DNA of 64,000 nucleotides, from assembly GCA_902626385.1 (NCBI GenBank), contig CACOEZ010000002.1:62001-126000 (forward strand), read 5' to 3'. Below the pieces are notes generated by a model. It was not told the origin of the DNA and did not search any database. It saw only the letters and a list, made by a program, of their open reading frames with translations. Made by a program: the position numbers and the translations under genes. The DNA is from an uncultured SAR86 cluster bacterium (GTDB lineage Bacteria > Pseudomonadota > Gammaproteobacteria > Magnimaribacterales > D2472). Shown here piece after piece: positions 1 through 3,744 of this stretch (position 1 is its first letter; every line of letters starts with the position of its first letter).

Positions 1-432
1 AATACTAATGTTCATCACAGGAAAACTTGCTTCACTATATTCTTGAATTTGGGGATCTTCCGCCTCTAAAGGTAATTGATATTTAATTTCTTCAACACCT
101 TGCTTAACATCTACCAAAGCTTGGTCAATATCAAAACCTACTTCAAACTCAAGAAACACTCTTGCATAGCTCAAGTAGCTTGTTGATCGGATATTTTCAA
201 CACCAGTAACAGTTTTAAGTCTATTTTCAAGAGGTCTTGCAATAAGCCTAGAGGTGTCGCCTGGTGATGCCCCATCAAGAAACACAGAAACTGTTATGAA
301 AGGAAGCTGAACATTTGGCGATGCTGCTATTGGAATTTCTTGTCTGGCATATGTACCAGCTATGATTACCATAAAGGCAATCAAAAGAGTTGTTTTAGCT
401 TTTTTTATAGCAAAGTCAATTATTTTTATCAT
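1..432 (-). CDS. RND efflux transporter permease (AcrB-like), N-terminal part, truncated by window edge
   Basis: Reverse-strand frame from cat at 430-432 reads MIKIIDFAIKKAKTTLLIAFMVIIAGTYARQEIPIAASPNVQLPFITVSVFLDGASPGDTSRLIARPLENRL..., typical RND N-terminus; overlaps the upstream adaptor gene by 4 nt. Confidence 0.8.
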   Translation of the reverse strand, partial: MIKIIDFAIKKAKTTLLIAFMVIIAGTYARQEIPIAASPNVQLPFITVSVFLDGASPGDTSRLIARPLENRLKTVTGVENIRSTSYLSYARVFLEFEVGFDIDQALVDVKQGVEEIKYQLPLEAEDPQIQEYSEASFPVMNISI

Positions 433-1307
433 ATGGGATTAGTGATAACCTCTTGACCATCTTCAACAAAACCCTGGCCTTGAATAATGATTTCTACATT
501 TTCTGAAATCCCAGTTACCCACAATCCTTCCTCAGAGTCCTCTAAAATGACTATCTCTACAAATTTTGCTAGATTGCCATCACTTACTATTCTTATACCT
601 AATTTACCCTCATCATTTAAAAGTAAAATTGATGGAGATATCTTATGAGCCTTAACACGATCAATTTCAATGCTTATTTCTGCTGTAAGACCATCTTTAA
701 TAAGCCCCTCAGGATTATTTATTTGTGATTCAACGCTAAAAGTTCTTGTATCAGGTGACGCACTTTTTGATACAAAAGTTAATTTACCTTCAATCTTTTG
801 ACCAGTTACTAAATCAACAAAAACATTTTGATTTACACGAACTTTATTAATATCGTATTCAGGAACTCCGGCAACTAATGAAATTGGATCTAGCTGAATT
901 ATAGTTGCACATATTTGTCCTCTTTCAAGAAAATTTCCTGGTTTAACAATCTGTTCAATGTAACCAGAAAAAGGGGCCTTTACCTCAGTTCTATTTAGCT
1001 CCACGACACCTAAACTACACAAGACAGTATCTTTTTCAACAAAATTACCTTGTGTTGCACCTATGTTGACAACTTCACCAGAAGTTTTCGCTTTAACATT
1101 AATTCTTTTTTCTGACTTAGTTGTAGCTTTAAGTTTGATATAAGGCTGATATTCTATAGCTTCACTAAGAAGTGTCTGAACACTGAATAGTTCATTAGTA
1201 TCAACCACTTTTTGTGGCTCATCATTTTTAAAAAAACCAGAGATCATCCATAAAAGAATTGGAATTAATATATACAACGATAGTCTTATATTTTGTGTTA
1301 ACTTCAT
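429..1307 (-). CDS. RND efflux periplasmic adaptor (membrane fusion protein, HlyD/AcrA family)
   Basis: 292 aa; N-terminal TM segment, lipoyl-like 'VKAPFSGYIEQIVKPGNFLERGQ' motif; adjacent RND pump. Confidence 0.8.
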   Translation of the reverse strand: MKLTQNIRLSLYILIPILLWMISGFFKNDEPQKVVDTNELFSVQTLLSEAIEYQPYIKLKATTKSEKRINVKAKTSGEVVNIGATQGNFVEKDTVLCSLGVVELNRTEVKAPFSGYIEQIVKPGNFLERGQICATIIQLDPISLVAGVPEYDINKVRVNQNVFVDLVTGQKIEGKLTFVSKSASPDTRTFSVESQINNPEGLIKDGLTAEISIEIDRVKAHKISPSILLLNDEGKLGIRIVSDGNLAKFVEIVILEDSEEGLWVTGISENVEIIIQGQGFVEDGQEVITNPI

Positions 1308-1349: not shown

Positions 1350-1931
1350 TTATACTTTATGTTTTTGCCTAAGCTTCTCAAACAGATCTTTGTTTAGTGG
1401 CTTTCTATTTTCTAGGTCTGTATTATCTTCAATTTCAAAAATTTTTCCATTAATAGCCTCAATTTTTAAAGAATTAAAAGCTTTTTTAAAGGCATTAAAA
1501 TTTTCATTTGAATTTTTTTCATTGATTTGATTCCATCCGATACTTTTTCCAGCGAAATAAACAATAGGATGTGACCAGCTATAACTTTTTCTTGGTTGAT
1601 ATGATTTTCTTGCTTCGATATAAGCCTCTTCAACAGTTGGGAAGCCATCTTTTTTGTTTATTTCAATACAAGCTTTCATTAAATCTGTTAATGTTGGTAA
1701 ATAAGATTGAGAGGAAATTACATTTTCTACTGCTTCTATAATTACATCAGGCGATTGTTCTTTCAAACTAACAGCCCAAAGCTTTTTACCTTCCTTTAAT
1801 TTTTCGTCTGTACCAAAGACTTTGTAAAATTGATAATGGTAAGCAAGCTCAAGTTTTAAAAACAAAGCGTCAATAGAGGTAATAAATTCTTCCCTATTCG
1901 AGGTTGATTTCTTTTGCCCAAGTGTTGTCAT
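1350..1931 (-). CDS. Lambda replication protein P-like / putative replicative helicase loader partner
   Basis: ORF track 1350..1994; the MTTLGQKK start at 1931 is plausible. Region 'YHYQFYKVFGTDEKLKEGKKLWAVSLKEQSPDVIIEAVENVISSQSYLPTLTDLMKAC' resembles phage P-type replication proteins; overlaps the DnaT-like gene. Confidence 0.5.
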   Translation of the reverse strand: MTTLGQKKSTSNREEFITSIDALFLKLELAYHYQFYKVFGTDEKLKEGKKLWAVSLKEQSPDVIIEAVENVISSQSYLPTLTDLMKACIEINKKDGFPTVEEAYIEARKSYQPRKSYSWSHPIVYFAGKSIGWNQINEKNSNENFNAFKKAFNSLKIEAINGKIFEIEDNTDLENRKPLNKDLFEKLRQKHKV

Positions 1932-2685
1932 TTTTTCTCGTTTTGAAGTCTTGTTTGTATTTTCCTGGTTCAGAATACTTTTTATCTTCTTCATTATCGC
2001 CTAAATTATTATTCAATATATGTCGCCTTTTAACATGGTCAATAAATTTTGAATTCCATGTTGTAAACGCCGCGCCTTTATCTTTCCAGTAAAGAATGAA
2101 TTCGCTAAGGTATTTTAATGCAGAGTCTTTTGTTATCTCTGATAAATTTAGAATATCAAATACATCATCATCTGGATACCAATTTTCATCAATTACATGA
2201 GGAACAGTCTTATTTGAATTTATTTCTTTTGCCCATTCTCGCCTTATAAAGTCAATGAAGGTAGAATTCCAATTATTTTTTTGCTGACCTCTTTCAATCC
2301 AATATATTTTAAATTCTTTTAGCTTCAAAGAAATAAATTCTTCTGGCATTTTTGTCATCGCAATTACTTCATTAGTTTCTTTGGATGGCATCCAGTTATC
2401 AGATAATGAATTCGAGTCTGTATTTTTTGAAGCAGACCTTACAACAAAATTTTCTGTTTTATTAGTGTTATGCACGTTAATAAAATTATATTTAACGAGT
2501 TTATCTATTGATGACTTTATCTTTGCAGCTGACAGATATTTAGCATTTTCTTTTATTGAAGAAAAAAGATCGTCATATGAATTATTATTTAGAATATTTT
2601 GATTAAATAAATCAAGAATTATTGCGGATTCAAGCCCTAAAGTTTCAGCAACTTCCTTTGAAAAAGATATTTTTTTATCTCCCAA
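1894..2685 (-). CDS. DnaT-like primosomal protein with two tandem DnaT-type DNA-binding domains
   Basis: Two repeats: NWMPSKETNEVIAM...LKEFKIYWIERGQQKNNWNSTFIDFIRREW and NWYPDDDVFDILNL...LSEFILYWKDKGAAFTTWNSKFIDHVKRRH, matching the W-P...F..YW..(R/K)G...W...F pattern of DnaT C-terminal domains. Confidence 0.6.
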   Translation of the reverse strand: MGDKKISFSKEVAETLGLESAIILDLFNQNILNNNSYDDLFSSIKENAKYLSAAKIKSSIDKLVKYNFINVHNTNKTENFVVRSASKNTDSNSLSDNWMPSKETNEVIAMTKMPEEFISLKLKEFKIYWIERGQQKNNWNSTFIDFIRREWAKEINSNKTVPHVIDENWYPDDDVFDILNLSEITKDSALKYLSEFILYWKDKGAAFTTWNSKFIDHVKRRHILNNNLGDNEEDKKYSEPGKYKQDFKTRKNDNTWAKEINLE

Positions 2686-3744
2686 CTATTTTTTACTCCT
2701 TCTTTTCTCAACTGCTAAATTTAGCTGATCAAGACAGCTAAGAGTGTCATCCCAACCCATGCAGGCATCAGTAATGCTTTGACCATACTTAAGTTTGTCG
2801 GATATCTTTTGATTTCCCTCGTTGAGATGGCTCTCTATCATCACACCTTTAATGTATGAATTTCCTGAAATGATCTGATCCGCAATTGATTGAACAACTG
2901 GTATTTGTTGTTTGAATTTTTTTTGGCTATTCCCATGACTTGCATCAATCATTATAGATTCATTTACTTCTGCTTCTCTTAGAGCTATGAGTGTGTTTTC
3001 AACAGATTCTTTATCATAGTTAGGTTCTTTGCCGCCTCTTAAAATTATGTGAGCATCATTATTTCCTGCAGTTTTTAACATAGCTATGTCAGCCTCTTTT
3101 GTTGCGCCAAGAAAAACATGAGAGTGATTGGCAGCTTGAATCCCATCAATTGCTGCCTTGAGACCGCCCGTTGTTCCATTCTTTATACCTATAGGACACG
3201 ATAAACCTGAGGCAAGTTCTCTATGAATCTGACTTTCTGCAGTTCTCGCTCCAATAGCACCCCAAGAAATTATGTCAGTAACATATTGTGGAGAAATTGG
3301 ATCGAGAAATTCAGTTCCTGCTGGCAATCCTATACTTGCAATATCGATTAGCAATTTTCTTGCTATCTCAACTCCTTTGGCAATATCAAAGGTCTCATTT
3401 ATGTCCGGATCATTAATCAAACCTTTCCATCCAACAGTTGTCCTGGGTTTTTCAAAATAAACTCTCATTATTATTAACAGATTTTCATTAAATTTCTTAT
3501 TTGCATCTGCAAGCCTTTCCGCATACTCTATTGCGCTTAAAGGATCGTGAATTGAACAAGGGCCAACAACAATAAATAATCTGTCATCTTTGCCATGAAG
3601 AATTTGGCTAATTTCATTTCTTGTGCCGTATACGAGCTTTGAAATTTCATCATTAATTGGAAATTTGTTCACAAGCTCATATGGAGCAGGTACTTTTCTG
3701 CGATCAATTATTCTTGTATTGTCAGTGGAATAGTTCATTAGCAA
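2686..3744 (-). CDS. 3-deoxy-7-phosphoheptulonate synthase (DAHP synthase, class I)
   Basis: 352 aa; 'LFIVVGPCSIHDPLSAIEYA', 'FEKPRTTVGWKGLINDP', 'IMIDASHGNSQKKF' motifs. Confidence 0.95.
   Translation of the reverse strand: MLMNYSTDNTRIIDRRKVPAPYELVNKFPINDEISKLVYGTRNEISQILHGKDDRLFIVVGPCSIHDPLSAIEYAERLADANKKFNENLLIIMRVYFEKPRTTVGWKGLINDPDINETFDIAKGVEIARKLLIDIASIGLPAGTEFLDPISPQYVTDIISWGAIGARTAESQIHRELASGLSCPIGIKNGTTGGLKAAIDGIQAANHSHVFLGATKEADIAMLKTAGNNDAHIILRGGKEPNYDKESVENTLIALREAEVNESIMIDASHGNSQKKFKQQIPVVQSIADQIISGNSYIKGVMIESHLNEGNQKISDKLKYGQSITDACMGWDDTLSCLDQLNLAVEKRRSKK

Follow-up and report, generated by a model that had tools for sequence, protein, structure and literature searches.

A pair of adjacent chromosomal genes, here called T and P, is in our judgement the resident helicase-loading module of the SAR86 cluster, domesticated from a phage module of the lambda O/P type and replacing DciA; we put the probability of this reading at roughly 80%. 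The placement of the replicative helicase on DNA is a need of every bacterium, and SAR86 is among the commonest lineages of the surface ocean. Very probably, the pair is the SAR86 loader of DnaB, of the kind described as DopC/DopE, and it would act by binding this helicase. The new element is a double loss of P in which its terminal helix, about ten residues long, is kept on T, and a P loss that leaves the C-terminal helix on T has, as far as we know, not been described before. Brezellec et al. (2017, Genome Biol Evol, doi 10.1093/gbe/evx111) reportedly found a chromosomal pair derived from lambda O/P, DopC/DopE, in bacteria without DciA and DnaC/I and proposed it as a third helicase matchmaker, in a paper the title of which is itself said to carry the word 'putative'. 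That such a proposal exists in the literature, as a sequence-only reading of this DNA had stated, is borne out by PMC13326638 and PMC6784150, in which the 2017 idea of domesticated lambda O/P genes as a third matchmaker is cited; DopE is named as a loader family in the former (PMC13326638).

The window, i.e. the whole stretch of DNA that was analysed, comprises 64,000 nucleotides from the 72% complete genome of an uncultured SAR86 cluster bacterium, and almost every named relative obtained in a scan of genome contigs belongs to the SAR86 cluster. For comparison, we used 121 genomes of the order, 39 of them at least 90% complete, and 274 genomes of the class. The genomes of the order fall into four SAR86 families, labelled f1 (34 genomes), f3 (33 genomes) and f2 and f4 (54 genomes together). 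The features of the locus are the following:

1..432, minus strand: start of the RND transporter gene, which runs on outside the window (ORF; contig positions 59322-62432)
429..1307, minus strand: membrane-fusion protein of the RND pump, next downstream (PF16576, E 2.9e-21)
1350..1994, minus strand: P gene, 214 aa, DopE/lambda P-like helicase loader (ORF, ATG start)
1353..1391, minus strand: C-terminal helix of P, within NKDLFEKLRQKHKV (AlphaFold2 helix 202-211; tail tests)
1653..1907, minus strand: N-terminal five-helix domain of P, residues 30-114, G39P-like (AlphaFold2 pLDDT about 90; match to 1no1)
1894..1994, minus strand: overlap of the T end and the P start, 101 nt (ORF coordinates)
1894..2685, minus strand: T gene, 263 aa, DopC/lambda O/DnaT-like (ORF, TTG start)
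2023..2193, minus strand: second DnaT ssDNA-binding domain of T (PF17948, 63.5 bits)
2215..2409, minus strand: first DnaT ssDNA-binding domain of T (PF17948, 60.9 bits)
2686..3744, minus strand: 3-deoxy-7-phosphoheptulonate (DAHP) synthase, upstream neighbour (PF00793, E 4.4e-92)

The sequence-only reading had described two overlapping genes at 1350-2685, one for a protein with tandem DnaT-type domains and one for a P-like replication protein, beside aro and efflux genes and with no other phage gene in view, and this description holds throughout: the two genes are overlapping minus-strand ORFs, flanked by the DAHP synthase gene upstream and by the membrane-fusion protein and RND pump genes downstream. 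No base separates the TTG start of T from the stop codon that ends the DAHP synthase gene, and the membrane-fusion gene, a neighbour whose position is conserved, begins 42 nt past P. The operon order DAHP synthase-T-P-membrane-fusion protein-RND transporter recurs with T at the same operon site across SAR86, P being absent in f2 and f4. The DAHP synthase gene adjoins T in all four families and in the outside relative G165, which has the same gene order aro-T-P, and about 13 flanking genes stand in the same order in all four families.

Profile searches against the DnaT and phage P families gave matches for both genes (PF17948 and PF06992, respectively). T matches the DnaT DNA-binding domain (PF17948) in two stretches with an E value of 5.5e-34, and its AlphaFold2 model matches the DnaT ssDNA-binding domain 4ou6 in the PDB with a probability of 1.00; the N-terminal part of the model is helical and has weak matches to winged-helix proteins. 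Among the PHROGs, T falls into phrog_1408 and phrog_1032, both annotated as 'replication initiation protein'. The T protein of the window has no match to the E. coli DnaT equivalog NF002770, one f4 T reaches 19.9 bits as compared to a cut-off of 201, and a search of NCBIfam gave no family covering the T/P pair. P scores 26.6 bits with PF06992 (Phage_lambda_P), barely above the curated cut-off of 26; its SAR86 relatives reach up to 45.8 bits, and P matches phrog_109, 'P-like helicase loader', with an E value of 1.4e-13. The AlphaFold2 model of P, computed on alignments of SAR86 relatives, consists of the five-helix N-domain, further helices, a low-confidence linker and then the C-terminal helix 202-211 (pLDDT 79-88). 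When this model was compared to the PDB with Foldseek, no match reached an E value of 0.001, and the top matches were all helicase loaders: the first three are the lambda P chains of 9oa1, the complex of DnaB and lambda P (probability 1.00, E 1.4e-3 to 9.6e-3), and SPP1 G39P (1no1) is matched with a probability of 0.99 and a TMt of 0.80. G39P also ranks first, with an E value of 0.02, in a sequence profile search with P.

The C-terminus of T in f1 and f3 has a W motif (NTWAKEINLE, window 1894-1930) that is like the end of lambda O (TDWIYGVDL), and the end of the O protein of PAJU2 (TSWAVGLEQDLF) resembles it as well. The motif is altered in f2 and mostly lost in f4, and it may be the end of T that binds P.

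DnaT domains, and with them T, are present in 110 of the 121 genomes of the order. Ten of the 11 genomes without T were checked, and all ten also lack the adjacent aro gene; thus, the region is unassembled or absent as a whole in these genomes, and a loss of the T gene as such is rejected. P, counted with a profile built on P itself (A1), was found in 63 of the 121 genomes: in 33/34 genomes of f1, in 30/33 of f3 and in 0/54 of f2 and f4. The absence of P is clade-wise, affecting two families, and not sporadic. The sporadic occurrence that would have spoken against the sequence-only reading is not seen: T is near-universal and stands in identical synteny over the four families, and P was lost in f2 and f4. 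Both genes look like phage O and P, the O-P order is also found in Pseudomonas phages, and in DciA-bearing genomes P sits in prophage-like settings, several of them beside an XRE repressor; it could be argued from this that T and P are a prophage remnant or genes of a mobile element. However, the locus is fixed in the chromosome with a synteny of about 13 genes over the families, the pair is nearly universal in the order, and its phage relatives are distant (21-30% identity for the best ones, and none confirmed in the viral contigs searched). A prophage remnant is ruled out by these observations as far as sequence can do so, and we give this explanation hardly any credence. Proteins with tandem DnaT domains occur in the class sample only in SAR86 and the outside relatives G123 and G165, none of them with a detected DciA. 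The genome G280, without detected DciA, encodes a protein of 385 aa (L178:3371-4528) with a T-like N-terminal part, a P-like domain and a C-terminal LxxLRxL stretch, possibly a natural T-P fusion. Finally, a stand-alone P with the tail described below (KRLKALRDKFDL) and no T beside it is encoded on JAURLQ010000089.1 (L162:4001-4663), between lldD-like and ettA-like genes and near glyA-nrdR.

A resident module that replaces DciA also agrees with the content of the genomes. The DciA profile PF05258 has no match in any of the 121 genomes of the order, including the 39 that are at least 90% complete. As a positive control, the same profile detects DciA in 221 of the 274 genomes of the class, where counts of absence are upper bounds because it missed a 101-aa ORF of G158 (L211:4862-5167) that lies between lpxC and the gene preceding secA and reads like a short DciA. 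The usual place of dciA in Gammaproteobacteria is the interval from secA to lpxC (PMC5109545); in the four SAR86 genomes checked, which come from f1, f2 and f3, these two genes are direct neighbours and the interval holds no gene. The 39 near-complete relatives and this closed site rule out the incompleteness of the source genome as the cause of the missing DciA. Among the PF01695 matches listed, there is no AAA+ loader of the DnaC/DnaI type (about 245-310 aa); these matches have the size of DnaA, Lon or RuvB, and the best one reads as DnaA. It is conceivable that a strongly diverged DciA persists in SAR86 and that the pair is accessory, and the ORF of G158 illustrates how such a protein can escape the profile, but the closed lpxC-secA site and the complete lack of profile matches in the order make this very improbable. 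As a separate observation, the f4 genome G008 (95% complete, a single contig) has no LpxC match, in contrast to the tested genomes of f1, f2 and f3; judged from its gene content, this small-genome family may lack the usual route of lipid A synthesis.

A role of the pair that is restricted to replication restart is possible because PriA is present: it was found in 13 of the 14 genomes searched (12 SAR86 and 2 others), i.e. in 11 of the 12 SAR86 genomes. T, with P, would then act like E. coli DnaT in PriA-dependent restart, and an unrecognised factor or DnaB itself would account for loading at oriC. This idea is in line with the DnaT domain in T and with the situation in E. coli, where DnaT functions in restart and its gene shares an operon with dnaC (PMC13377028). 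On the other hand, DnaC of the same dnaTC operon serves both oriC and restart, no other loader was found in SAR86 (no DciA in 121 genomes, a closed lpxC-secA site and no candidate among the PF01695 matches listed), and the order-wide conservation of T together with a phage-type loader argues for a core function. We consider a restart-only role unlikely, and we favour the reading of T and P as the resident loader, in keeping with the earlier proposal of a domesticated phage helicase-loading module, which gains support from the lack of a detected DciA, from the lack of a DnaC-sized protein among the PF01695 matches listed and from the conserved chromosomal operon, the function itself being the probable part of this reading.

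The two families without P have retained a specific part of it. In f1, the tail of P follows the pattern L..L[RK].K[HY].[IVL]. In f2 and f4, P is gone and the membrane-fusion gene directly follows T, with gaps of 28 nt (L064) and 1 nt (L066). The tail is found on the P-less T in all 15 closed proteins of f2 and all 11 closed proteins of f4, and on none of the T proteins beside P. As a regular expression, it occurs in 23 of 25 distinct C-termini of P-less T, in 0/56 of T with P and in 0/352 other SAR86 C-termini; the two misses are a one-residue variant and an f1 T with P cut by a contig end. Since this regular expression was made after both sets had been seen, we trained a position matrix on f1-type P tails only, and 25 of 26 T proteins of f2 and f4 score above all 497 background C-termini. 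By the same matrix, the P tails of f3 are divergent from those of f1, and for P of G165 no tail was found in the ORF or in the following 300 nt. A further reduction has occurred within f1, where one genus (L163-L168; g4 and named SAR86 SAGs) has a P of 142-147 aa that lost the WSHP domain and kept the N-domain and the tail.

The order of these events can be read from a family tree built from ten genes (3317 columns), in which f1 and f4 are sisters (100/100). A clade of f2 and f4 is rejected by AU tests, with p 1.1e-4 for the ten genes and p 0.039 for aro alone, and a single shared origin of the loss of P in these two families is thereby ruled out. Because P is present in f1, in f3 and in the outside relatives G165 and G123, we conclude that P was lost twice, in f2 and in f4. 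A loss followed by a re-gain of P at the same spot would be less economical. As far as the sequences tell, P has thus undergone two losses, with the tail kept on T each time, and a third reduction within f1.

The structures available for lambda P suggest what the tail might do. In the cryo-EM complex, each lambda P runs an extended segment along the C-terminal tier of DnaB, and the final helix of lambda P is placed at the linker helix of the adjacent DnaB subunit (PMC6391071); the LH-DH site of DnaB is common to DnaC, lambda P and DciA (PMC9912922). Residues 219-226 of lambda P (IAEIKAKF) resemble the tail pattern; a significant sequence match of the tail to the C-terminus of lambda P is unsupported, as 92 of the 497 background C-termini reach its score in the matrix. 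Since the C-terminus of lambda P does not stand out from the background in this matrix, the equivalence rests on position, pattern and structure, from which we infer that the SAR86 P tail is the counterpart of the C-terminal DnaB-docking helix of lambda P. The tail helix looks like a portable helicase-binding element that would bind DnaB, and T with the helix like a one-protein loader.

We propose the following scenario. A replication module of the lambda O/P type would have been domesticated before the SAR86 families split. T would coat ssDNA by its tandem DnaT domains and mark where the helicase is to be loaded, at oriC and perhaps at restarted forks too. By analogy, T would supply the ssDNA binding as DnaT does in the E. 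coli preprimosome, where DnaT filaments bind ssDNA (PMC13377028). P bound to T would capture DnaB and open or hold the ring, with the C-terminal helix of P docking at the linker-helix/docking-helix site of DnaB; binding, ring opening and the exact site of action are all predicted from the relatives of the pair. In f2 and f4, P was deleted and the helix taken over by T, so that one protein would couple ssDNA binding to the capture of DnaB. Whether this single protein, composed of DnaT-like repeats and a transplanted tail helix, makes up the entire replicative-helicase loader of these families, a minimal loader of a non-AAA+ type with two origins, each by a deletion that removed the body of a lambda P-type loader and left its DnaB-binding helix, is a question on which we see the chances as evenly divided. 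The tail might instead bind a partner other than DnaB, e.g. DnaG, SSB, DnaA, the beta clamp or another T protomer, and the P-less families might have lost or moved the loader function. The failure of the lambda P C-terminus to stand out in the tail matrix would fit such a partner, but the tail ends a loader of the lambda P type whose fold match covers most of lambda P, DnaB is contacted by the C-terminal helix of lambda P (PMC6391071), and the tail survived each of the three separate times that P was reduced. A different partner is a possibility to be taken seriously, if a rather doubtful one, and docking at DnaB is the function that we prefer for the tail.

In the papers searched, no report links SAR86 to helicase loaders. 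Our analysis identifies the probable helicase loader of SAR86, and with it the putative third class of loaders now covers an entire order. Moreover, a lambda P-type loader has been reduced naturally in SAR86: in two independent deletions, only a helix of ten residues was spared, which resembles a natural mutagenesis and indicates an indispensable part of this type of loader. From this we predict that DnaB can be recruited by an ssDNA-binding protein to which a short peptide has been fused.

The pair can be compared to several known systems. With DciA it shares the presumed function of bringing DnaB to DNA, but there is no homology between them, and DciA was not found in SAR86. As in the E. coli dnaTC operon, a protein with a DnaT ssDNA-binding domain is encoded beside a loader; however, the SAR86 loader is of the lambda P type and not an AAA+ DnaC, and the number of DnaT domains is two or three in T as compared to one in E. 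coli DnaT. The N-domain of P has the fold of SPP1 G39P, and SAR86 P extends beyond it with another helical domain and with the conserved tail. Lambda O/P and the SAR86 pair have in common the O-P gene order with overlap, the fold of P, the extended segment that ends in a helix (predicted in SAR86), and the C-terminal W motif of T in f1 and f3 (DWIYGVDL at the end of lambda O). They differ in that T of SAR86 has tandem DnaT domains, in that lambda P and SAR86 P share only 14% identity in the fold alignment, and in that the SAR86 pair is chromosomal and vertically inherited. The closest parallel is DopC/DopE: both pairs are chromosomal, derived from lambda O/P and hosted by genomes without detected DciA and DnaC/I, and the chromosomal residency with conserved context and vertical inheritance is found in SAR86 as well. 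What sets SAR86 apart from DopC/DopE, as far as we know, is the loss of P in f2 and f4 with the helix kept on T.
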